Assembly: GCF_000173655.1 (NCBI RefSeq)
Contig: NZ_ABZU01000001.1
Coordinates: 1 to 64,000, forward strand
Origin: Corynebacterium amycolatum SK46
GTDB lineage: Bacteria > Actinomycetota > Actinomycetes > Mycobacteriales > Mycobacteriaceae
Direction: 5' to 3'
DNA length: 64,000 nucleotides
Shown: positions 1 through 11,651 of the stretch, piece after piece
Layout: the number at the start of each line of letters is the position of its first letter
How positions within the stretch are numbered: the stretch's first letter is position 1
Made by a program: the position numbers and the translations under genes
The notes under the pieces: generated by a model
The model's database searches: none
What the model saw: only the letters and a program-made list of their open reading frames with translations
Told to the model about the DNA's origin: nothing

Positions 1-5
1 ACGCT

Positions 6-39
6 AACTCCCTTGTGGTCCTCCACAAGGGAGTTTTTT
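6..39 (+). terminator. Rho-independent terminator of an upstream gene
   Basis: A perfect 13-bp inverted repeat (6-18 pairing with 23-35, 4-nt loop) is followed by a T run. It must end a gene lying before the window and it isolates the accessory operon that follows. Confidence 0.85.
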
Positions 40-55
40 GGCGAATCAAGGAAAA

Positions 56-90
56 GGATGCTGCAGTGGATAGCTATTGCAGCATCCTTT
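56..90. other. Second hairpin upstream of the YwqG-like gene
   Basis: A 10-bp inverted repeat (56-65 with 78-87) encloses a 12-nt loop that is itself partly self-complementary. It is followed by TTTCGTTT. It may be a backup terminator. Its 3' arm overlaps the candidate -35 of the next gene, so it could instead be a regulatory dyad. Confidence 0.4.
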
Positions 91-105
91 CGTTTGAAGG
101 ATAAT
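77..105 (+). promoter_or_regulatory. Candidate sigma-A promoter of the accessory operon
   Basis: TTGCAG (77-82) and GATAAT (100-105) are separated by 17 bp. This is a reasonable housekeeping promoter about 45 nt before the first start codon. It is read from sequence only. Confidence 0.45.
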
Positions 106-149
106 CCCTGATTAAACACCTTGTTTTCCGAGAGAAAGAACCACCTGCC

Positions 150-1106
150 ATGTCAGAGTTCACAGCACAGGTTCAAGCACTTCGCTCGTTGATCGAGGCC
201 GGAGAGTTTATCTCCGAAGACACTGATGGCCTCATCCAACTTGCTCAACCAGGCGTAACCCTTCCCTACTCCAACAGCACTCCCACCGACCATGGTTCGT
301 ACTTCGGTGGCAGGCCGTATCTTCCGGAAGGTGCGACATGGCCCATCGCAAAGAGCGGTCAGCCACTGCTCCACATCATTCAGCTGAATTTTGCGGATAT
401 TGTCGGTCATGTGCGTGCGGCGGGGGCGTCGACAAGCGAAGCAACTCTCGACGGATTGATTCCCGAATCAGGAATTTTTCAACTCTTTGTCGGCGCTGAT
501 CCCCTCAGCGGCGGATTTACTTCAGATTCGCCAGGAGACGGCATGGAGATTCGCTATATCCCTGAGCCTGCGGAAGGCTTTGGCAACCACAGCTTCCCTG
601 GACCTCATACCGCGGAGCCAGCAGCCTTCGATGAAGAGCACGAGGATTACTGCTCCCCGTTCAACGAGGATATTGGGACGGTTATGAACTCTCCGATTTC
701 CTTGTCTAGTGCAGTGGCAATGATCCCTCCCACTGACCAAGCAGTGTACGAGGCGTTGGAGTCCGAAAAGGACGATGACTTTCTTGATAACGATGACTAC
801 TTTGACGAGCTAGTTGAGTTGCGAGCCGCAGCCAGTAACCAAAGCAACATTATGCTTGGCGGTTTCCCCGCTTTCGCGCAAGACCCTTTTCAGCCTGATG
901 GGTACGTTCACTTCCTAGAGATCGATTCCACATATCTCGAAGAAGAAGAGCTCCCCTTCGAGGCCATGTGGGGCGATCTAGGTGTGGCCCACGTATTCCT
1001 TCACCCAGACGCATTGAAGAAGATGCACGCCGGCGAGGCCGTGGTGTACCGCTCCGAAAATACTGGCACGACCGATGGTGCTGTTTTCTACTGGGATTGT
1101 GGCTAG
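150..1106 (+). CDS. YwqG-like (DUF1963) protein
   Basis: The product has 318 residues and no signal peptide or membrane segment, so it is probably cytoplasmic. Residues 50-65 (SYFGGRPYLPEGATWP) and the following LLHIIQLNF block match the conserved core of the YwqG/DUF1963 family, in which a Gly-x-Pro-x-Leu-Pro loop is followed by a Trp-Pro and a QL(N/D) strand. The family has no assigned biochemical activity. The middle is acidic (about residues 200-225). A GAGAGAAAG stretch lies 11 nt before the ATG. This is the first gene of a four-gene run in one direction that ends in the radical SAM enzyme. Whether it belongs functionally to that system is inference from co-orientation and the terminator boundaries. 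Confidence 0.75.
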   Translation: MSEFTAQVQALRSLIEAGEFISEDTDGLIQLAQPGVTLPYSNSTPTDHGSYFGGRPYLPEGATWPIAKSGQPLLHIIQLNFADIVGHVRAAGASTSEATLDGLIPESGIFQLFVGADPLSGGFTSDSPGDGMEIRYIPEPAEGFGNHSFPGPHTAEPAAFDEEHEDYCSPFNEDIGTVMNSPISLSSAVAMIPPTDQAVYEALESEKDDDFLDNDDYFDELVELRAAASNQSNIMLGGFPAFAQDPFQPDGYVHFLEIDSTYLEEEELPFEAMWGDLGVAHVFLHPDALKKMHAGEAVVYRSENTGTTDGAVFYWDCG

Positions 1107-1131
1107 GTTTGTTTTCCACAATCGCCCCATT

Positions 1132-1154
1132 TGGTTTGCCTTTAATCCAAACCA
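1132..1154. repeat. Inverted repeat between the YwqG-like gene and the TM-protein gene
   Basis: TGGTTTG (1132-1138) and CAAACCA (1148-1154) form a perfect 7-bp dyad with a 9-nt spacer in the 78-nt intercistronic gap. It could be an operator or an mRNA processing/attenuation hairpin. There is no T run, so a full terminator is unlikely. Confidence 0.35.
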
Positions 1155-1184
1155 CAGTTTCGACCATTACCTGGAGTAAATAAA

Positions 1185-1874
1185 GTGGTAGGCGACTTTC
1201 TTATATTCGCAGTTATTATCGTATTTGTATCCCTTTTAGTATTTTTTGTTGAATTCCGCGGATCCGATAAACCTGTGGAGTGGCCACAGGCGAATATTGG
1301 TGTTGGACAGATCGAATCCTTCAGCGTCACCGGCAAGCCCGATAAGAAGGGTTACTACACGGTCATCATGCAGATGGCAGTCGAGGCACAAGATGGGAGC
1401 CACTTTAAGTCGGTTTTGACCCGTCAACTACCGGAACATAAGCACTCCCTCCTGCAGCAAGGCATACTCGTCCCTGTGATGTACCGCCCAGACCGACCGG
1501 AGAAGGTCAAGATTGCCCGCGGCAGGCATGAGAAACGGGCTCAAGATTTCCTGAACCAAGTCAAGATTCGCGATGGAATTCTTGATCGCGAAATGTTAGA
1601 GGCTGATCTACGAGGACGTCCGACTTACTCACAGGTGAAATACATCAAAGACACCGGACGAAAAGTCCGTGGCCTCAATGAATATGAACTTGGACTGTCT
1701 GTCTTCCCGGCGCATGGTGAGCCCTACTCTGTCACTAAGACAATGGTGTTAATGAATTACGAGGCGGCAGCGGTAACCCCGGGGACCATCCTGCCGACAC
1801 GATACCTTCCAAATCAACCAAACGCACTGGTAGTTAGCCTGCGTCCTAAGAATGAAAAGGCCGATGCAAAATGA
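1185..1874 (+). CDS. Membrane-anchored protein with duplicated small domain, unknown function
   Basis: The product has 229 residues. The GTG start is preceded by CTGGAG at 1171-1176. Residues 3-23 form one hydrophobic segment followed by FVEFRG, so it should be anchored by its N-terminus. The rest contains two similar units. Each has a beta-rich stretch and ends in a P-V-x-Y-R-P-D-R-P or P-T-R-Y-L-P-N-Q-P type turn followed by a hydrophobic strand (about residues 45-108 and 155-222). The arrangement is reminiscent of DUF3592-like domains, but I cannot assign a family. Its stop overlaps the start of the poly-Asn peptide gene (ATGA), so the two are translationally coupled. Confidence 0.7.
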   Translation: MVGDFLIFAVIIVFVSLLVFFVEFRGSDKPVEWPQANIGVGQIESFSVTGKPDKKGYYTVIMQMAVEAQDGSHFKSVLTRQLPEHKHSLLQQGILVPVMYRPDRPEKVKIARGRHEKRAQDFLNQVKIRDGILDREMLEADLRGRPTYSQVKYIKDTGRKVRGLNEYELGLSVFPAHGEPYSVTKTMVLMNYEAAAVTPGTILPTRYLPNQPNALVVSLRPKNEKADAK

Positions 1875-2167
1875 CGAACTATGAGTCGTGGGAAAACGAA
1901 GAACTAAATGAGCTGGAAAAATATCGGCGAACTGCAGACGTTGGCGGCCATAACCGTACCGGTACAGGTGCGAGCACCGGTGGCGACGGCAGCATTCCGG
2001 ACTATTTCGACCAGTCGGACTTTGACTGTCCATTCTCTGAAACAGGAAGTTTTACCAACGGTTGGTGCGACGCTCTAAATTTCGGTGACGGCAGCGACAG
2101 CGGATACGGCGGGGACTCGAACAACAACAATAACAATAACAATAACAACAACAATAATAATGGCTAA
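1871..2167 (+). CDS. 98-aa Gly/Asp/Asn-rich peptide with C-terminal Asn14 tract, candidate RiPP precursor
   Basis: The N-terminal 22 residues are charged and probably helical (ENEELNELEKYRR), like a leader. From residue 25 the sequence turns to Gly, Ser, Thr and Asp, with only two cysteines (C53 and C66). It ends in 14 consecutive asparagines (residues 84-97) and a glycine. There is no signal peptide and I recognise no family. Between residues 45 and 73 there are four aromatic-x-Asp/Asn triads (YFD, FTN, WCD, FGD). The gene overlaps the gene before it by ATGA and the radical SAM gene after it by 8 nt. Being a small, biased peptide locked between these genes suggests it is the substrate of the enzyme. 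That role is inference. A structural or scaffold peptide is the alternative. Confidence 0.65.
   Translation: MTNYESWENEELNELEKYRRTADVGGHNRTGTGASTGGDGSIPDYFDQSDFDCPFSETGSFTNGWCDALNFGDGSDSGYGGDSNNNNNNNNNNNNNNG
2120..2161 (+). repeat. AAC/AAT codon run (poly-Asn)
   Basis: Fourteen asparagine codons in a row use a mix of AAC and AAT, so the tract is not a pure trinucleotide repeat. The last AAT codon supplies the A and T of the next gene's ATG. The run is very A-rich and should be unstructured as RNA. It contains no Shine-Dalgarno sequence. Confidence 0.9.
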
Positions 2168-4058
2168 GACAATACTTCCGTTACCGACGATTCCTACCGT
2201 CGGCGTGCCAGCACTTGATGAGACCGCTGCTGCGGACAACGCCACTTTTCAAGCAGCTGTAACCACTAAAGCTGGATTCAGACTTCACCACAAAGCAATT
2301 AAGCTGACCTTTGTTCCTAACCAGTATTGCAATCTTGGGTGCAGTTACTGCTACCTGGGCGATCTCACCGAGAACAAAGACAATCCTTCGGATGTAGTGT
2401 CACAATTCAATCGCATTGCGAACCATCTGGATCACCAGGGAATCCTCATCAGCTCGTTACTTTTGCACGGTGCAGAAATTTCGACTTTGCCAGCATCTGT
2501 ATTGCGCGACCTGTTCAACGCATATACGGAGTATCGCTCTAAGTATCGCTTGCAGCTCAAAGCTTTAGGCAGCAACGGCGCAGCGATCCACATTAAAACC
2601 AATCTGTACAACTTCGATAAATTAAGGCCCCTCTACGAGGAGTTCGAAGTTTCCATTTCAGGCAGCTTTGATTTGCCATTTAGCCTGCATGAGAAACTGC
2701 GTACAACCAAGGCGGGGAAATCGACCCTCAAGCGAACAATTAACAATGTTTTGCTCCTTGGTGAATATCCATTCCGCAAGCAGATAAGCTGCGTAGTTGG
2801 GAAAGAACACCTCGAACGCATCGACGAGTTTATTCATGATATTGAATGGCTCGATGAACATGGTTTTGACATGGTTACCGACTTCTACATCATGTTTGCC
2901 TACGATAGCGTGAAGTCGGACTACACTTCCCAGCTCAACCAGCAGGAAATGGTTGAATTCTTCGAATCTTTGCGGCTCCATTTCGAAGGCACAAAGTTCG
3001 AACAAGCCATTTATTATGAGTGGTTCAAGGAATTTACCCACGGTTACTGCACTAATCAAATCAATTGCGGCACCAATAACTTTCTAGTGCAGAAGGACGG
3101 GGACGTTTACCCGTGCCACAGAGGTCAGGCAGAACCTGACTTGAAGTTTGGCAATATTCTCCAACTGGGAATGCCTGAGTTGATTACGCGCGGCGGCGAT
3201 GCCATTCGCGCTTATGAGCGGGCCAATCCTGCTCTATCCAGTGACTGCATTAGCTGTGAGTATTTCTATCTCTGCCATGCCGGGTGTCCAATTCAACGCA
3301 ACAACACCCAGCAGGACAAGGCCTATACCTGCGGTATCCAGAAGGCGCTTTATCGCGCCCAACCACATCGTTTTCCGCCCAAGCCGGAAGTTTCGCGCCG
3401 CCTTGTTGACTCATTCATTCGACAAAACCAGCCGCGTATTTACGATGACCTGTCAGTTCCTCGAGTAATTGAGTTTAATCCCGAGCTCTTCGAAGAGAAG
3501 AACTCGATTACATCGATTATCAACCGCGATTCTAATTTGGCAACGTTGTTCCGAAAAGGTGCGATACGTCTCCATGTCAACGAGGCGTCCTGTGACTTGT
3601 TCTCCAGCCGACTCTATGGTCGCATCACCCAGGCCAATATTTCGCCTAGCGATAGCATCAAGGTGTTTGTCGCAGACGACCTTTGGGCACTGAATGCAGG
3701 CGACGGCGCAATTAACGCGGTCCGGGTACAACTCTTGCGTGACAATCTCGTTGTCTATGGAGACGAGGCCCGAACAAAGATGGAGCACGTCGCCACGACC
3801 GATTTTTATGCCGCAGAACTGACTCGCGCGGAAGGTGGTTGGATTTTGGATTTAACCGGGTTTTTCAAGCAGTACGCACACACGTTCCTTCCCGATTATG
3901 GCAATCTCTTATCGATCACAACGATCAAAGCTCGTGAATACCACTACGCAAAGCACGCCAAAAACGCGTTCTACCACCTGGAAACGGTGAATCTTCCCTT
4001 CCACGAATTTCGGTTTGATTGGATGCCAGATCCGTCAATTGATATTCAGGCTACATAG
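2160..4058 (+). CDS. Radical SAM/SPASM domain peptide-modifying enzyme
   Basis: The product has 632 residues when started at the ATG that overlaps the end of the poly-Asn gene. The radical SAM motif CNLGCSYC places the 4Fe-4S ligands at C57, C61 and C64. A complete SPASM domain follows: C303, then a G-x4-C at C319, then C-x2-C-x5-C-x3-C at C363, C366, C372 and C376, and a final C391, with C297 as an extra cysteine. SPASM enzymes bind auxiliary Fe-S clusters and typically modify ribosomal peptides or proteins (for example anaerobic sulfatase maturases and RiPP maturases). About 225 residues after the SPASM domain match nothing I recognise. There is no Shine-Dalgarno sequence, so translation probably depends on reinitiation from the upstream gene. 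The 98-aa peptide is the obvious substrate candidate; the specific reaction cannot be told. Confidence 0.85.
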   Translation: MAKTILPLPTIPTVGVPALDETAAADNATFQAAVTTKAGFRLHHKAIKLTFVPNQYCNLGCSYCYLGDLTENKDNPSDVVSQFNRIANHLDHQGILISSLLLHGAEISTLPASVLRDLFNAYTEYRSKYRLQLKALGSNGAAIHIKTNLYNFDKLRPLYEEFEVSISGSFDLPFSLHEKLRTTKAGKSTLKRTINNVLLLGEYPFRKQISCVVGKEHLERIDEFIHDIEWLDEHGFDMVTDFYIMFAYDSVKSDYTSQLNQQEMVEFFESLRLHFEGTKFEQAIYYEWFKEFTHGYCTNQINCGTNNFLVQKDGDVYPCHRGQAEPDLKFGNILQLGMPELITRGGDAIRAYERANPALSSDCISCEYFYLCHAGCPIQRNNTQQDKAYTCGIQKALYRAQPHRFPPKPEVSRRLVDSFIRQNQPRIYDDLSVPRVIEFNPELFEEKNSITSIINRDSNLATLFRKGAIRLHVNEASCDLFSSRLYGRITQANISPSDSIKVFVADDLWALNAGDGAINAVRVQLLRDNLVVYGDEARTKMEHVATTDFYAAELTRAEGGWILDLTGFFKQYAHTFLPDYGNLLSITTIKAREYHYAKHAKNAFYHLETVNLPFHEFRFDWMPDPSIDIQAT

Positions 4059-4062
4059 AAAC

Positions 4063-4101
4063 GACCGCCCCAGGAACTTCCCTGGAGCGGTCTTCTCTTT
4101 T
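4063..4101. terminator. Bidirectional terminator between radical SAM operon and ferritin
   Basis: GACCGCCCCAGG (4063-4074) pairs with CCTGGAGCGGTC (4081-4092) with one mismatch and a 6-nt loop, followed by TTCTCTTTT. It closes the accessory operon and probably also serves ferritin on the other strand. Confidence 0.8.
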
Positions 4102-4125
4102 CGAACTCACAAATCGAGTTTGACG

Positions 4126-4623
4126 TTAAGCTGCGTCGCGAGCGCCAAGCTCCCGGTCGATACGTAGCAGGCCAGCACCGTTGTCGCCGACAATCTCCAG
4201 GCGGCCGATGATGCCACGCACGGTGTCCTCTTCCTCAATCTGCTCAACCACGAAGCTGTCCAGCAGCGGGCGGGAGTCGAGATCACCCTCGCTATCAGCA
4301 AGCTTGCGGAGGTTACGGATAGATGCCGAAACCTTTTCTTCATGCTCAAGAGCGATGCGGAATGCATCGATTGCGGAAGTGACCTTCACCTCCGGTGCGT
4401 CGACAGCACCAATCTGCGGGTGGTTGTCGCGAGCATCGAGGTGTGCGATGAACTGGTTCGCGTGATCAACTTCCTCATCCGCCTGTGCACGCATCCACTC
4501 TGCCATGCCGGAGAGATCCAGCAGATCCAGCTCGATTGCCAGCTGGCGGTAGACGTGGGAAGCGGTGAGCTCCATAGTGATCTGGTCGTTGAATGCCTTC
4601 TCAAGAGTATCTGTTAGTCGCAT
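4126..4623 (-). CDS. ftn: Ferritin
   Basis: The product has 165 residues from the ATG, which has AGGGG just upstream. It stores iron as ferric mineral in a 24-mer cage. The sequence has the four-helix ferritin pattern. The helix starting with DQITMELTASHVYRQLA, followed by EWMRAQADEEVDHANQFI, provides ferroxidase Glu and E-x-x-H ligands. Residues NHPQIGAVDAPEV form the usual loop, and EHEEKVSASI lies in the third helix. An open frame extends further upstream, but its translation is not ferritin-like and crosses the promoter. It is divergent from the RibD-like gene, and its promoter region carries an imperfect DtxR-like dyad, consistent with iron control. Confidence 0.95.
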   Translation of the reverse strand: MRLTDTLEKAFNDQITMELTASHVYRQLAIELDLLDLSGMAEWMRAQADEEVDHANQFIAHLDARDNHPQIGAVDAPEVKVTSAIDAFRIALEHEEKVSASIRNLRKLADSEGDLDSRPLLDSFVVEQIEEEDTVRGIIGRLEIVGDNGAGLLRIDRELGARDAA

Positions 4624-4660
4624 GCCCCTACTATAAGCCCAACCCCCATAAATGACAACG

Positions 4661-4668
4661 ATTATAAT
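4661..4668 (-). promoter_or_regulatory. Palindromic -10 box of ferritin
   Basis: ATTATAAT is its own reverse complement, so TATAAT reads as a perfect -10 on both strands. For ferritin it lies about 40 nt before the ATG, which leaves room for a leader with the AGGGG site. No good -35 is visible on the minus strand, which fits a promoter that needs an activator. Confidence 0.5.
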
Positions 4669-4676
4669 ACTTCCCT

Positions 4677-4695
4677 TATAAGCCAGGCCTTGCCT
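4677..4695. promoter_or_regulatory. Possible DtxR box upstream of ferritin
   Basis: This 19-bp imperfect dyad (TAAGCC-AGGCCT-TGCCTAT) is centred on AGGCCT. It agrees with the DtxR/IdeR consensus at only about half of the positions. It covers the -35 position of the ferritin promoter. DtxR is known to control ferritin genes in corynebacteria. Assignment to this site is tentative. Confidence 0.25.
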
Positions 4696-4719
4696 ATTTT
4701 GCAATCGTCGGCTTAACCT
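4690..4719 (+). promoter_or_regulatory. Candidate leaderless promoter of the RibD-like gene
   Basis: TTGCCT (4690-4695) and TAACCT (4714-4719) are 18 bp apart, and the ATG begins 8 nt after the -10 ends. Transcription would therefore start at or next to the initiator codon. Confidence 0.5.
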
Positions 4720-4726
4720 CGGCGGT

Positions 4727-5539
4727 ATGGCTACACTCACCTCCAGAAGCCCATCAACCGATGAAGTTTTGCAGTTTCTTTCTCGACCTGCGCAAACGGC
4801 ACATGATTCAGCAGCGGTACCCCTCGCCACCTCCACCGTCACTGCCATCGCCGTCACCAGCTTGGACGGACGCGGCGCCGTCGAAGGCACCTCAGGCCAG
4901 CTTGGGAATGACACCGATGCCACGGTTTTCAACACGCTTCGCGCGCTTGCCGACGTCGTTTTCGTTGGTACAGGCACCATCGCGGCTGAGGGTTACGGGC
5001 CAGTTGAGATACCGGAGTACCTAGAGACCGTTCGACAGAAGCTAGGTCGCTCCAAGCACGTGGCGATGTCCACACTCTCGCGCTCGTTGGATTTAGATAT
5101 AAAATCCGACTTTTTCGCGAATGCAGAAGTCAATCCTCCGATAATCTTCACCCAGACTGAAGATGCTTTTAATGATGAAGAGGCAAAGACCGCTCACAAG
5201 GACAAAGCTAGAAAGATGGAATCGGCCGGGGCTCGCGTCGTTAAGCTCCCTGATCCCTCGGTAAAAGCGGCGTTAGCGTGGCTGGCTGAACATGGGTATC
5301 GAGACATTGTCGTAGAGGGTGGGCCGACGATGTATCGAGAAGCATTCGAAAACGGGTGCGTCGACGAACTGTTCCTGACGTTGTCGCCGATGTGGGTGGG
5401 TAACGGTCCCCTGACTTTCGGCGAGACCGCCCCTGATGAGGACTGGAACTCGACGAACCCGCAGGCTTTTGAAGTGCGGGATATCCTACGTTCCGACTCA
5501 CACATCTTCCTACGCTATTCCCGCAGCTTCACCCAGTAG
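4727..5539 (+). CDS. RibD C-terminal/dihydrofolate-reductase-fold reductase
   Basis: The product has 270 residues. It matches the reductase half of RibD: an N-terminal strand VTAIAVTSLDGRGAVEG, the ADVVFVGTGTIAAEGYG segment for pyridine nucleotide, and the VVEGGPTMYREAF motif near residue 200. No deaminase domain is present, so it is a stand-alone RibD_C protein like the M. tuberculosis gene at the same position (Rv2671). Its substrate is uncertain: riboflavin precursor or another pteridine-like compound. It lies 11 nt before aftC, so the two are probably co-transcribed. No Shine-Dalgarno sequence precedes the ATG, in line with a leaderless start. Confidence 0.85.
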   Translation: MATLTSRSPSTDEVLQFLSRPAQTAHDSAAVPLATSTVTAIAVTSLDGRGAVEGTSGQLGNDTDATVFNTLRALADVVFVGTGTIAAEGYGPVEIPEYLETVRQKLGRSKHVAMSTLSRSLDLDIKSDFFANAEVNPPIIFTQTEDAFNDEEAKTAHKDKARKMESAGARVVKLPDPSVKAALAWLAEHGYRDIVVEGGPTMYREAFENGCVDELFLTLSPMWVGNGPLTFGETAPDEDWNSTNPQAFEVRDILRSDSHIFLRYSRSFTQ

Positions 5540-5550
5540 GGTGGAGTATT

Positions 5551-6939
5551 GTGAGTAAACCAAAAATCGACGTGAGCGCAAGCGCAACGGCATTAACGCA
5601 AACGTCCAAGGACACGCCAGAAACACCTTCGGTGGCTCGACGCCCTCTGACTCGGCAGGTATCACGAGGACTCAGCGCTTTCTTGTGGCCTATCGCAGCT
5701 GTGGTGATTTTTCACCGCACCTGGGTTTTGCCGAAAGACGTGTCTGGCACAGATGACTTTACGACGGTCTGGTCGGCAATTAATCGATTCGTATCGCAGG
5801 TACCCGTTTATTCGGAAGACTACGTAACAGCCGATCCGCACTATCTGTATTCCCCAGGCGCTACCCTACTTTTAGCCCCGATTGATTTGTTCGGCTCGCT
5901 CGAATCGGGCCGAATCTGGTTTGCGGTATTTCAGTCAGCTGCAATCATTGCGGCAATTGTGTTGCTACTCAGGTGGCTTGGTATTGCGCGCTCTGGCCCC
6001 ATCATTCCAGCGTCGATAGCACTGCTCTACCTTACGGAACCCGTTACCAACACCCTTGACTTTACGAACGTCAACGGTTCACTGTTCCTTGCATTAGTGC
6101 TATTTTTTATTGCGTTGACCGAGCGACGCAATATCCTGGCCGGCCTGATTATCGGTATCGCAATCACTATCAAGCCCGTATTCTTGCCAATGCTGTTCCT
6201 ACCGTTCATGCGCAGGCAGTTCTCTACGGTACTGACCAGTATCGGGGTGGTAATTGCAGCCAATGTCATTGCGTGGCCGCTCATGGTCCAACCACGTGAC
6301 TACCTAGATATCACTGTCCCCTACCTGGGAGTTGTCCGTGACTTTGCAAATGCTTCGCTGACTGGGCAGCTTGTTTGGCTGGGTGCCCACCCGACACTGA
6401 TTTTGCTGTGGCAAATCTTTTTCGGCATTTTCGTCTTGGTATCTGTCGTGCTCCTTCTTCGCTGGCTCGAAAGGGATGAGAAATTCTGGATTGCTACGAC
6501 TTCCGGAGTTCTCTTCACCGGCGCGTTCTTCCTTTCCAGCCTGGGACAGCAGTACTACTCTATGACGCTCTTGCCAATGGTTCTCACCGTGCTTCGCCCA
6601 TTGGTTTTGGATCGCGACAATGAAGGAAATATTGGTTCGACTGTCATGTTGAATTGGGGCGCAGGACTCGGAGTCGTACTCTGTTTCTTCTACGCCAATT
6701 GGTGGATTGATGAGGATGACCTGTTTTTCCCGTGGTTCATGGTCGCAATCGGCGGTATTGGATGGGCCGTTCTTATCCTCTCCATCACGGCAGCACTCAT
6801 TCGAATGACGATTGTGGATGCCGTCAATGGGCGTAGCTTTGCATCCGGCTTCAGCTGGTTGAGCGACTGGAAGTTCGCAGGCAGGAAGTCTAATCAGGAA
6901 TCTGATCTCAAGTCTGAGGAGACTATTCAGAATGGTTGA
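5551..6939 (+). CDS. aftC: Alpha-(1->3)-arabinofuranosyltransferase, GT87 family
   Basis: The product has 462 residues (GTG start) with about ten hydrophobic segments and a hydrophilic N-terminus of 40 residues. It is a GT-C-fold glycosyltransferase that uses decaprenyl-phospho-arabinose to branch arabinan of cell-wall arabinogalactan and lipoarabinomannan. An Asp pair at residues 68-69 sits in the first extracytoplasmic loop, where GT-C enzymes keep acidic catalytic residues. The position between a RibD-like gene and msrB is the same as for M. tuberculosis aftC (Rv2673), which is the strongest support for the specific name. It overlaps msrB by 8 nt. Confidence 0.85.
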   Translation: MSKPKIDVSASATALTQTSKDTPETPSVARRPLTRQVSRGLSAFLWPIAAVVIFHRTWVLPKDVSGTDDFTTVWSAINRFVSQVPVYSEDYVTADPHYLYSPGATLLLAPIDLFGSLESGRIWFAVFQSAAIIAAIVLLLRWLGIARSGPIIPASIALLYLTEPVTNTLDFTNVNGSLFLALVLFFIALTERRNILAGLIIGIAITIKPVFLPMLFLPFMRRQFSTVLTSIGVVIAANVIAWPLMVQPRDYLDITVPYLGVVRDFANASLTGQLVWLGAHPTLILLWQIFFGIFVLVSVVLLLRWLERDEKFWIATTSGVLFTGAFFLSSLGQQYYSMTLLPMVLTVLRPLVLDRDNEGNIGSTVMLNWGAGLGVVLCFFYANWWIDEDDLFFPWFMVAIGGIGWAVLILSITAALIRMTIVDAVNGRSFASGFSWLSDWKFAGRKSNQESDLKSEETIQNG

Positions 6940-7357
6940 TTCGCATAGCGAAGACTGGAATCTCAGCGAAGAAGAATGGCGCCAACGCCTCAGTGCCACG
7001 GAGTACCAAGTTTTGCGTCAGGCAGGTACTGAACGCGCCTTCACCGGTGAGTACACCGATACTAAAACTCAAGGTGTCTACCGCTGCCGGGCTTGTGGTT
7101 ACGAGCTGTTTCGGTCGAACGAGAAGTTCGACTCTCACTGCGGTTGGCCATCCTTCTTTTCTCCACTAGCTGGAGACCGGATTATTGAGCGCCGAGACAC
7201 GAGCCTCGGTATGGTCCGCACCGAAGTGCTGTGCAGTCGTTGCAAGTCTCACCTCGGCCACGTCTTTGAGGGGGAGGGTTACAATACTCCGACGGACCTG
7301 CGTTACTGCATCAATTCAATTTCACTCACTCTGGAACCGGACAAGACGGCTGAATAA
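6932..7357 (+). CDS. msrB: Peptide-methionine (R)-S-oxide reductase
   Basis: The product has 141 residues. It reduces methionine-R-sulfoxide in proteins. The zinc site is C52/C55 (CRAC) and C101/C104 (CSRC). The catalytic cysteine is C126 in RYCINSISL, and C70 in HCGWPSF is the probable resolving cysteine. The full family length is present. Its ATG lies inside the end of aftC, so it is translated as the last gene of the ribD-like/aftC/msrB operon. A strong terminator follows. Confidence 0.95.
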   Translation: MVDSHSEDWNLSEEEWRQRLSATEYQVLRQAGTERAFTGEYTDTKTQGVYRCRACGYELFRSNEKFDSHCGWPSFFSPLAGDRIIERRDTSLGMVRTEVLCSRCKSHLGHVFEGEGYNTPTDLRYCINSISLTLEPDKTAE

Positions 7358-7369
7358 CTAGATAAAGAA

Positions 7370-7424
7370 GCAGCGCCGCTGGTCAAAATCCCGTCAGTTA
7401 ACGGGCTTTGACCAGCGGCGCTGC
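7370..7424. terminator. Long convergent terminator between msrB and hemQ
   Basis: A perfect 18-bp stem (7370-7387 with 7407-7424) has a smaller CCCGT/ACGGG hairpin nested in its loop. It sits between convergent genes and could stop transcription from both sides. The T runs are weak. Confidence 0.75.
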
Positions 7425-7448
7425 TGATTCTCTCGTATAGCGCGCAGG

Positions 7449-8147
7449 CTACGGCAGAACGTTGATAATCTCCGCGATGTCATCGACGCGACGGCCCGTG
7501 TGGAACGGAATCTCTTCGCGGACGTGCAGACGAGCCTCGGTGTAACGCATCTTCCACATCAAGTCCACAATGCGGTCGAGCTCCGGCCCCTCGAATGCAA
7601 GGATCCACTCGTAGTCGCCGAGTGCGAACGCCGGGACAGTATTGGCGCGCACATCCGGGTAGTCACGACCGGCCATACCGTGTTCAGCAAGGATGCGGCG
7701 ACGCTCGGTCGGCTCCAGCAGGTACCAGTCGTAGGAACGGACGAACGGGTAAACCGCAATCCATCGTCCCGGCTCTTCACCCATGATGAACGACGGCAGG
7801 TGCGACTTGTTGAACTCAGCTGGACGGTGCAGCGCAGCGTTCGACCAATGCGGAGTGGATGCCTGGCCCAGCGGAGTCTCGCGTAGGAAGGCGTTGTAGA
7901 ACGCCTGCAGGTCTTCCATCTTCTCTGCGTGGATCCAGAACATGAAGTCAGCTTCAGCACGCATGGCCGAAACGTCGTAGAAACCACGGATGATCAAATC
8001 AGTGTCTTCGTAACGAGCTAGGAATTCCTTGGTCTTAGCCACTGCCTCTTCGCGGTTATCACCGAGTGCACCAGGGGTCACCTTGAAGGCAGACCACATG
8101 GTGTAGCGGATGGTGTCGTTGAGCTTCTTGAAATCGAGCTTGGCCAT
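7449..8147 (-). CDS. hemQ: Coproheme decarboxylase (HemQ/ChdC)
   Basis: The product has 232 residues. It is the last enzyme of the coproporphyrin-dependent haem pathway, converting Fe-coproporphyrin III to haem b with peroxide. It belongs to the chlorite-dismutase-like fold. H116 (SHLP), Y133 (AVYPFVRS) and H156 (AEHG) fall exactly two residues before the distal His118, catalytic Tyr135 and proximal His158 described for C. diphtheriae ChdC. AGGAG precedes the ATG. It is the last gene of a hemE-hemY-hemQ run. Confidence 0.95.
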
Positions 8148-9815: not shown

Positions 9816-10925
9816 TTACGTTGCGTGAATGATTTCAACGGCGCGCGTAATCGCGTCGGCGTCGGTATTCGGTAGTACCCCGTGGCCCAAGTTGAAGATA
9901 TGTCCACGGGCGTCACCACGCTTTATTGCGCGGTCAGCCTCAGAGCAGATGCGCTGAATCTCTTGGGTCATTGCAGCTTCACCGGCAAAGAGAATCGCCG
10001 GGTCCAGGTTGCCCTGCAATGCAAGGCTGTTTTGCGCCGGGTCTGCGCCTCGGTGAACGTCGGAAAGCGTGGCACGAATGCGGTTGGCAGCAACGTCCAG
10101 TGGCACGCGCCAGTCGACGCCCATGACTTCTGGGCCGGTTTCAGCCATAGCACCGAGAAGCTCGCCGGTCCCCACACCGAAGTGGATGCGCGGAATGCCG
10201 GCGTCGGCGACGGCCTGGAAGATTTCCTTCGAGTACGGCAACACAAAGCGGCGGTAATCACGCTCGGTGAGATAGCCAGCCCAGGAGTCGAAGAGCTGAA
10301 TAGCGTCCACTCCAGCACCAATTTGCGCGCGCAGGAAAGCAATCACCATCGGAGTGATCTTCTGCATCAGGTGATCCCACAATTCAGGGTCCGAGTGCAT
10401 AAGCGCCTTGGTGCGCTCGTGATGGCGGGATGGACCACCTTCAATCAGGTACGACGCCAAGGTGAATGGTGCACCGGCGAAACCAATGAGTGCCTGAGTA
10501 TCAGTCAGCTCTTGCAGAATGAGGCCGATACCCTCGGCCACCGGAGCGAGTTGCTCTTCCGTGACTTCCGGTAGCGCCTTGATGTCTGCTTCCGAGCGCA
10601 CCGGAGTATCCATTACTGGACCGCGACCAGGAACAACATCCAGGTTGACACCCGCGGCCTTCAGCGGCACGACGATATCGGAAAAAAGAATCGCAGCATC
10701 AACGTCGTGCCTACGTACCGGCTGCATAGTAATCTCAGCGAGCAGTTCCGGACGGAAGCAGGAGTCCAACATACCGATGTCCTTGCGCACCTCACGGTAC
10801 TCAGGCAGTGAACGACCGGCTTGCCGCATAAACCACACCGGGCGGCGCGAAGGAGTTCGACCGTAAGCTGCATCAAGAATCGGGGCATCAGTCAAAGTGC
10901 GACGATTGTTCATACGGACAATCAT
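9816..10925 (-). CDS. hemE: Uroporphyrinogen decarboxylase
   Basis: The product has 369 residues. It removes four carboxyl groups from uroporphyrinogen III to give coproporphyrinogen III. The signature PVWFMRQAGRSLPEYR (residues 29-44) contains the substrate-binding arginines, and GAPFTLASYLIEGG is the second conserved block. AAGGAAAG precedes the ATG used; a second ATG follows four codons later. It is the first gene of the haem operon and divergent from the DUF3000 gene. Confidence 0.95.
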   Translation of the reverse strand: MIVRMNNRRTLTDAPILDAAYGRTPSRRPVWFMRQAGRSLPEYREVRKDIGMLDSCFRPELLAEITMQPVRRHDVDAAILFSDIVVPLKAAGVNLDVVPGRGPVMDTPVRSEADIKALPEVTEEQLAPVAEGIGLILQELTDTQALIGFAGAPFTLASYLIEGGPSRHHERTKALMHSDPELWDHLMQKITPMVIAFLRAQIGAGVDAIQLFDSWAGYLTERDYRRFVLPYSKEIFQAVADAGIPRIHFGVGTGELLGAMAETGPEVMGVDWRVPLDVAANRIRATLSDVHRGADPAQNSLALQGNLDPAILFAGEAAMTQEIQRICSEADRAIKRGDARGHIFNLGHGVLPNTDADAITRAVEIIHAT

Positions 10926-10926
10926 G

Positions 10927-10957
10927 CCCCACTTTCCTTAGAAATTAATGTGTGGGG
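10927..10957 (-). promoter_or_regulatory. Dyad around the hemE ribosome binding site
   Basis: CCCCAC (10927-10932) and GTGGGG (10952-10957) would pair in the hemE leader RNA, with the AAGGAAA site in the loop next to the stem. This may tune access to the ribosome binding site. The short stem makes it tentative. Confidence 0.3.
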
Positions 10958-11060
10958 TACTAAGAACAGGGAAATCGCTCGTCCTGCTGTGCGTTTTCGA
11001 CGAACCGCTTGGTCGCTTTCCGCTCTTTTTCGGCGCGCCTCCCACTAACGCAAGCGTCAT

Positions 11061-11651
11061 ATGGCTAAGTTCAGGCGCGTGAATGGAACCGATTCAACGC
11101 CACAGAACTTCCGCGCCGCGGTCGAGTCAATGCACTCTGCTGAACTGCGACCTGAGATTGCTCTGGGCACCGTTCGGCCACCGCAGAAGCTGGCACCGTT
11201 TAGCCACGCTGTCTCGCTTGAGGTCACGCAGCCCGAAGCTGATATTGTCCCCGAGTCCTCGGACGATGATGCCTTTGGTCGTTTAATTTTGCTCCATGAC
11301 CCCCGCAGCGAGGAAACCTGGGACGGCGACATGCGCTTGGTTGCATACATCCAGGCAGATATGGATGCCTCCCTCGCGGAAGATCCGCTGCTTCCCCAGG
11401 TTGCCTGGCAATGGCTCACCGAGGCTCTGGCTGAGAACAACGCCGAACTGTCGAACTTGGGTGGCACGGTGACAACTACGAACTCTGTCCGCTACGGCGA
11501 GATTGGCGGCAAGCCGCAGGCCTTTCAATTAGAAATGCGCGCATCGTGGACTGCTCGTGGCACCGACCTGCGCGCTCACGTTGAATCCTTCGCTCAGGTA
11601 CTAGCGAACGTCGCTGGTCTGCCGCCCGTCGGCGTATCCCTACTGAGCTGA
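11061..11651 (+). CDS. DUF3000 family protein
   Basis: The product has 196 residues, soluble and slightly acidic. It matches the actinobacterial DUF3000 family, whose M. tuberculosis member (Rv2680) sits at the same place between hemE and RNase D. The conserved block SVRYGEIGGKPQAFQLEMRASWT lies near residue 155, and RPEIALGTVRPPQKLAPFSHAV near residue 30. Function is unknown. The gene is followed after 40 nt by the RNase D gene and is probably co-transcribed with it. Confidence 0.85.
   Translation: MAKFRRVNGTDSTPQNFRAAVESMHSAELRPEIALGTVRPPQKLAPFSHAVSLEVTQPEADIVPESSDDDAFGRLILLHDPRSEETWDGDMRLVAYIQADMDASLAEDPLLPQVAWQWLTEALAENNAELSNLGGTVTTTNSVRYGEIGGKPQAFQLEMRASWTARGTDLRAHVESFAQVLANVAGLPPVGVSLLS

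Follow-up and report, generated by a model that had tools for sequence, protein, structure and literature searches.

The window analysed here is a stretch of 64,000 nucleotides from Corynebacterium amycolatum SK46 (contig NZ_ABZU01000001.1, positions 1 to 64,000 of the forward strand). Between positions 150 and 4058 it holds the gene of a radical S-adenosylmethionine (SAM)/SPASM enzyme, preceded by the gene of a small peptide that ends in a run of asparagines (Asn). We consider it likely that the enzyme represents an undescribed radical SAM/SPASM family dedicated to the Asn-rich C-terminal tails of partner proteins. The features of the locus, with the peptide and the enzyme first and their neighbours last, are these:

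1871–2167, forward strand: candidate substrate peptide of 98 residues, ending Ser-Asn14-Gly (open reading frame (ORF) and neighbour comparison)
2030–2083, forward strand: peptide portion common to Corynebacterium (PFSE..xF..GW...L.F), a possible recognition motif (by eye over the peptides)
2120–2161, forward strand: run of 14 Asn codons, AAC and AAT mixed (sequence and codon count)
2160–4058, forward strand: radical SAM/SPASM enzyme of 632 residues (Pfam, NCBIfam, structure model and fold search)
2328–2351, forward strand: CxxxCxxC radical SAM cluster motif, C57, C61 and C64 (alignment)
3048–3332, forward strand: SPASM region with eight invariant Cys between residues 297 and 391 (Pfam and alignment)
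3480–4034, forward strand: C-terminal domain peculiar to the enzyme family, residues 441–625 (model and alignment)
1185–1874, forward strand: gene of a membrane-anchored protein (N-terminal stretch hydrophobic by eye; DUF3592 matched weakly)
150–1106, forward strand: DUF1963 (YwqG-like) gene, a neighbour and not a conserved partner (Pfam and related-locus comparison)

The first-pass annotation had described four co-oriented genes of which the last three overlap, and both coordinates and overlaps are confirmed: an ATGA at 1871–1874 joins the membrane protein to the peptide, and 8 nt at 2160–2167 join the peptide to the enzyme. It had also reported complete sets of radical SAM and SPASM cysteines, and these hold beyond the window, as C57, C61, C64 and the eight SPASM Cys (297, 303, 319, 363, 366, 372, 376 and 391) are invariant across 16 aligned relatives. 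Judged by their pattern, the eleven cysteines would correspond to one radical SAM cluster and two auxiliary clusters. Two residues near the third SPASM Cys, R321 and Q323, are invariant in the alignment too. In Pfam, the enzyme matches SPASM at 22.9 bits (cut-off 21.5) and Radical_SAM at 27.1 bits, under its cut-off of 29.5.

Assignment to a known family was less straightforward. In NCBIfam the enzyme falls under every equivalog cut-off, the best match being DynA (85.7 of 450 bits); DarE reaches 49 of 650 bits, and on these two scores we rejected its identity as a dynobactin or darobactin maturase. DynA, DarE, PapB, AmcB and GrrM, maturases of ribosomally synthesized and post-translationally modified peptides, likewise pair a radical SAM/SPASM enzyme with a small peptide, but they match weakly, the window enzyme is far under all their cut-offs, and here a phage tail fibre can replace the peptide. 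To our knowledge, none of the five acts on an Asn run. The closest solved fold is that of an anaerobic sulfatase-maturating enzyme (anSME): Foldseek ranked anSMEcpe first (PDB 4k36–4k39, template modelling score 0.69–0.73 by target length) for a model with a predicted local distance difference test (pLDDT) score of 82. Core fold and Cys layout are shared with anSME, but the window enzyme carries an extra C-terminal domain of about 185 residues, has no sulfatase substrate, and scores 78.5 bits against the anSME family TIGR03942, whose cut-off is 349.45. The residue following the third SPASM Cys, Asp in anSME sequences, is His, Pro or Val in 16/16 members; score and missing Asp led us to reject an anSME identity. 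A full-length match was obtained with PHROG 1802, a phage protein cluster with a radical SAM domain; the window enzyme scores 158.6 bits and the Campylobacter phage enzyme 475. This cluster is anonymous, without function or substrate, and its description includes neither cellular members nor Asn tails. The family appears to be undescribed so far: no NCBIfam cut-off is reached and no description was found in open-licence PMC literature.

The C-terminal domain has two strongly conserved motifs, YG(D/E/N)ExRxK and RxYHYxKxxxNAFYHxxxxNxPF, and its model has a pLDDT of 85. Foldseek found no PDB match for it at E ≤ 0.001, and the best VIA-align hit (Z 6.9) stood among unrelated proteins, so that no fold is assigned and no new fold is claimed; that this domain might hold the Asn tail is offered as a suggestion only. 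An unrooted tree of 23 rows separates the enzymes of Corynebacterium and phages from the remaining cellular enzymes (99/99), at a point where long branches meet.

Cellular copies of the enzyme are scattered over four phyla. A genome-contig scan found 12 loci, spread over Corynebacterium, Gammaproteobacteria (Aliikangiella among them), relatives of Geobacter and Pelobacter, and metagenome-assembled genomes of Bacteroidia and Clostridia, with enzymes outside Corynebacterium 34–38% identical to that of the window. Profile searches added five further Corynebacterium genomes and five in the order of genome G405, bringing the set to 23 loci, window included (L014 and L015 are the Corynebacterium genomes G723 and G126, as their match coordinates are identical). 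The first-pass annotation had held that enzyme homologues consistently without the peptide gene would speak against the pairing; run on this set, the comparison found, in 21/23 loci, an ORF adjacent to the enzyme with an Asn run and Gly at its C-terminus, the run of L021 containing unread bases. A SPASM-type maturase is expected to have the full Cys set and a small precursor beside it; the first is present and the second was found in those same 21 loci. The peptide gene precedes the enzyme gene in Corynebacterium and at L016, L017 and L023, whereas it follows the enzyme gene in the Geobacter group and at L019 and L024.

To put numbers on this association, enzyme presence was defined as a profile match at E ≤ 1e-50 and the tail as the DNA pattern (AAY)5-GGN-TRR. 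The pattern occurs in 8/242 Corynebacterium genomes and in 8/141 genomes in the order of G405, and these 16 are exactly the 16/383 genomes with the enzyme, each having one match, beside the enzyme. The 367 enzyme-less genomes have none (Fisher p 1.3e-28, relatedness ignored). The enzyme is thus patchy in Corynebacterium, and in a class-level search around G403 that genome alone was positive (1/185).

Most Corynebacterium peptides consist of a short PFSE..F..GW..L motif and a Gly/Ser-rich spacer, followed by a tail of Ser (once Asp), 5–14 Asn and Gly. Outside Corynebacterium, a domain of 100–130 residues precedes the Asn tail. The N-terminal parts of the partner ORFs are of different kinds, and the tail is their sole common element. 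Over 29 tails (20 cellular, L021 left out, and 9 from phages) we counted 305 Asn codons, 157 AAC and 148 AAT, and this mixing of codons indicates that the amino acid itself is selected. Lys, which a single base change would produce from Asn, flanks none of the runs (a Lys-free interior being true by construction), and the interruptions counted within runs are single Gly residues in L016, L017 and L023 only. Run lengths span 2–18, with 13–18 in the Geobacter group.

Enzymes from phage genes, 36–42% identical to that of the window, were found on a plasmid record of Campylobacter coli (L026), in the Campylobacter phage CAM-P21 (L027) and in 13 viral contigs for which no host is stated. The order tail fibre, p211 (PHROG 10241), enzyme is found in 14/15 phage loci (for L033 and L034 the order was taken from L086 and L081, which are the same contigs), and the fibres of these 14 end in NNNNY, SCNNNNN, GNNF or GNNS. 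As a control, 28 viral loci were fetched by the N-terminal part of the fibre; two are cut within the fibre, leaving 26 usable. Seven of the 26 have both p211 and the enzyme, and each of their fibres ends in NNNNY or GNNF, whereas 19 carry a DUF4376 chaperone and none of their fibres ends in an Asn pair or run (that of L090 ends in one Asn; in L106 the fibre gene is broken in two, and the second part has no Asn at its end). Only the 15 DUF4376 loci with at least 3 kb of downstream DNA entered the statistic: an Asn tail is present in 7/7 fibres with the enzyme and 0/15 without (p 5.9e-6, many contigs being near-copies), or, by distinct tip type, in 4/4 versus 0/6, a small count in which L106 is scored by its second part. 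None of the 43 loci tested has both p211 and the DUF4376 protein, and p211 showed no similarity to the 33 ORFs following seven enzyme-less fibres. The Asn-tailed tip, p211 and the enzyme thus move together, as a single cassette, at the site of host recognition.

The control loci resemble a characterised system. The H-fibre of the related prophage CJIE1, of Mu/P2 type, was shown to bind C. jejuni and to require its DUF4376 chaperone (PMC7882524). N-terminal fibre domain and gene position are the same, but CJIE1 has no radical SAM gene and no Asn tail, and in Asn-tail phages p211 and the enzyme occupy the chaperone's place; the term 'radical SAM' is absent from that paper (PMC7882524). For two phages, CP220 and CPt10, 11 and 12 radical SAM proteins have been reported, with a metabolic role suggested (PMC2853527).

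Four things are shown for enzyme and Asn tail: their genes are adjacent, they occur together across genomes, they are swapped as a cassette, and Asn is conserved as an amino acid. The pairing is wider than the first-pass annotation supposed. That annotation had proposed the peptide as substrate of the enzyme, a role that now seems probable, strongly supported by the co-occurrence and the phage cassette swap. The partner looks like a small peptide in Corynebacterium and a tail fibre in Campylobacter-type phages, with p211 as a helper where relatives have the DUF4376 chaperone.

Our best guess for the reaction, by analogy, is an oxidative, anSME-like change in the tail. The enzyme would bind the Asn tail and generate a 5'-deoxyadenosyl radical, which would remove a hydrogen from the tail, with the Asn beta-carbon favoured; electrons would then pass to the two auxiliary clusters, leaving the tail oxidised. 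A layout with two auxiliary clusters suits oxidative two-electron reactions, as established for anSME. Abstraction of the Asn beta-carbon hydrogen occurs in other SPASM systems, which is why a cross-link inside the tail is our first guess for the product, a tentative one to which we give about one chance in three. The finished tail might be a stiff or ligand-binding tip, serving receptor contact in phages and an envelope-linked role in cells, though this is speculation.

Several points weigh against this picture. The chemistry is deduced from family resemblance alone, and modification of the tail is predicted from sequence and co-occurrence. At two cellular loci, L022 and L025, the sequence examined contains no ORF with an Asn run; in L022 a transposase-like ORF (by eye) follows the enzyme, and in L025 the contig ends inside it. 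The enzyme gene is frameshifted in L015 and L073 (Corynebacterium) and in the viral L040/L092, and near its 3' end in the viral L038, so that some lineages can do without the enzyme. L092, which is the same contig as L040, is moreover one of the seven enzyme-bearing control loci. GNNF fibres have two Asn only, and the viral member L028 has no Asn tail at all, its nearest candidate being a Cys-rich short protein. Conversely, L126 and L130 hold long viral ORFs ending in an Asn run and Gly with no enzyme nearby, and none of 14 Asn6-Gly-stop matches in viral contigs, these two among them, had the enzyme in the sequence examined.

Some of these loci deserve a further remark. An ORF upstream of the L022 enzyme (L022:5159-5779) is a GNAT acetyltransferase by Pfam, and L025:5480-6040 looks alike by eye. 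The frameshifted loci L073, L015, L040 and L038 all retain the Asn-ending ORF. The C-terminus of the short L028 protein (L028:4752-5270) is rich in Cys (CALCASCSGCPC); the protein lacks an Asn run and may represent another type of substrate. The viral frames with Asn run and Gly lie at L126:6-701 (232 residues) and around L130:4617-4640 on the minus strand (465 residues).

Among other explanations, the one that survives best, which we nonetheless judge unlikely, is that the Asn run is a docking handle and that the residue changed is the preceding Ser, Cys or Thr, which would be oxidised in the manner of anaerobic sulfatase maturases or linked via O or S to an Asn. Such a residue precedes the run in 20/21 cellular tails, and the exception, the Asp of L073, stands in a locus with a frameshifted enzyme gene and only five Asn, the shortest cellular run; moreover, anSME is the closest solved fold, and TIGR03942 matches all 16 aligned members. 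Yet the Asp after the third SPASM Cys is the catalytic base of anSME, and it is precisely this residue that is replaced. The run of the four GNN-ending fibres is preceded by Gly, and Ser/Thr stands one or two positions before that; a handle would leave runs of up to 18 Asn unexplained. Epimerisation of Asn, with alternating D and L residues yielding a helical tail as in polytheonamide-type peptides, is highly improbable: a homopolymer of free length would suit a processive, regular change, and Asn ladders are known in such peptides, but the peptide epimerases known so far take their hydrogen from a spare Cys, the three clusters account by pattern for all 11 invariant Cys, and eight SPASM Cys suggest net oxidation. 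Least probable of all, if marginally so, is that repeat slippage merely left the run behind while the enzyme acts on some other substrate, since although tract length varies among close relatives (13–18 Asn in the Geobacter group), codons are mixed, no tract is bordered by Lys, and tract and enzyme occur together in 16/16 genomes and in none of 367 others; on genome-level co-occurrence and codon mixing we rejected a chance or slippage origin.

The remaining genes of the locus are less constant than peptide and enzyme. The protein at 150–1106 matches DUF1963 at 83.9 bits (cut-off 23), and its gene is present at 1/18 related loci, the near-identical L069; the four genes do not form a conserved unit, and the YwqG-like protein, once proposed as an accessory part, is a passenger. 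The 1185–1874 protein matches DUF3592 weakly (18.7 bits, cut-off 25.3). All 7 other Corynebacterium loci have a member of this protein family, which in L073 is in pieces; relatives occur in 63/401 genomes of the taxonomic family, with the enzyme in 2 of these, and L072 has two copies. Proteins with hydrophobic stretches (by eye) adjoin most cellular enzyme copies, but they belong to at least three families without detectable mutual similarity, so that any envelope link of the cellular systems would be indirect. No recurring transporter, protease or immunity gene was recognised by eye in the neighbour lists, where not all neighbours were scanned against families. An exported peptide with immunity genes, as first envisaged, is unsupported, the phage tail belonging to a full-length fibre. 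None of five proteins matched PADLOC models at E ≤ 0.01, and an anti-phage defence system was dropped as a candidate.

Of the two terminators said to enclose the operon, the upstream stem-loop followed by Ts (about 8–37) is visible by eye and missing from the list of the terminator scan, while the downstream stem (4063–4092) is listed, on the minus strand only. No Rfam match reached the gathering score in window positions 1–8000. In the sister genome L069, seven tRNA genes (Gly, Val, Cys) lie immediately upstream of the operon, at 10226–11318, and the window contig starts at the point matching this array, whose position would suit a mobile origin.

Within open-licence PMC literature, nothing was found linking poly-asparagine or a tail fibre to this enzyme. 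Taken further, our reading is of an undescribed oxidation of poly-Asn tails by which phages finish the receptor-binding tip of their fibres, enzyme and p211 replacing the chaperone, with the bacterial peptides as free-standing tips; we regard the chances of this fuller version as evenly balanced. If true, finishing of a fibre tip by a radical enzyme would add a new step to virion assembly and to host recognition, and the anonymous phage family PHROG 1802 would gain a role. A homopolymeric Asn substrate would likewise be a new SPASM target, easily assayed since its length varies freely, and fibres of this kind that are produced in the absence of the enzyme, as for phage-based antibacterials, might be inactive.

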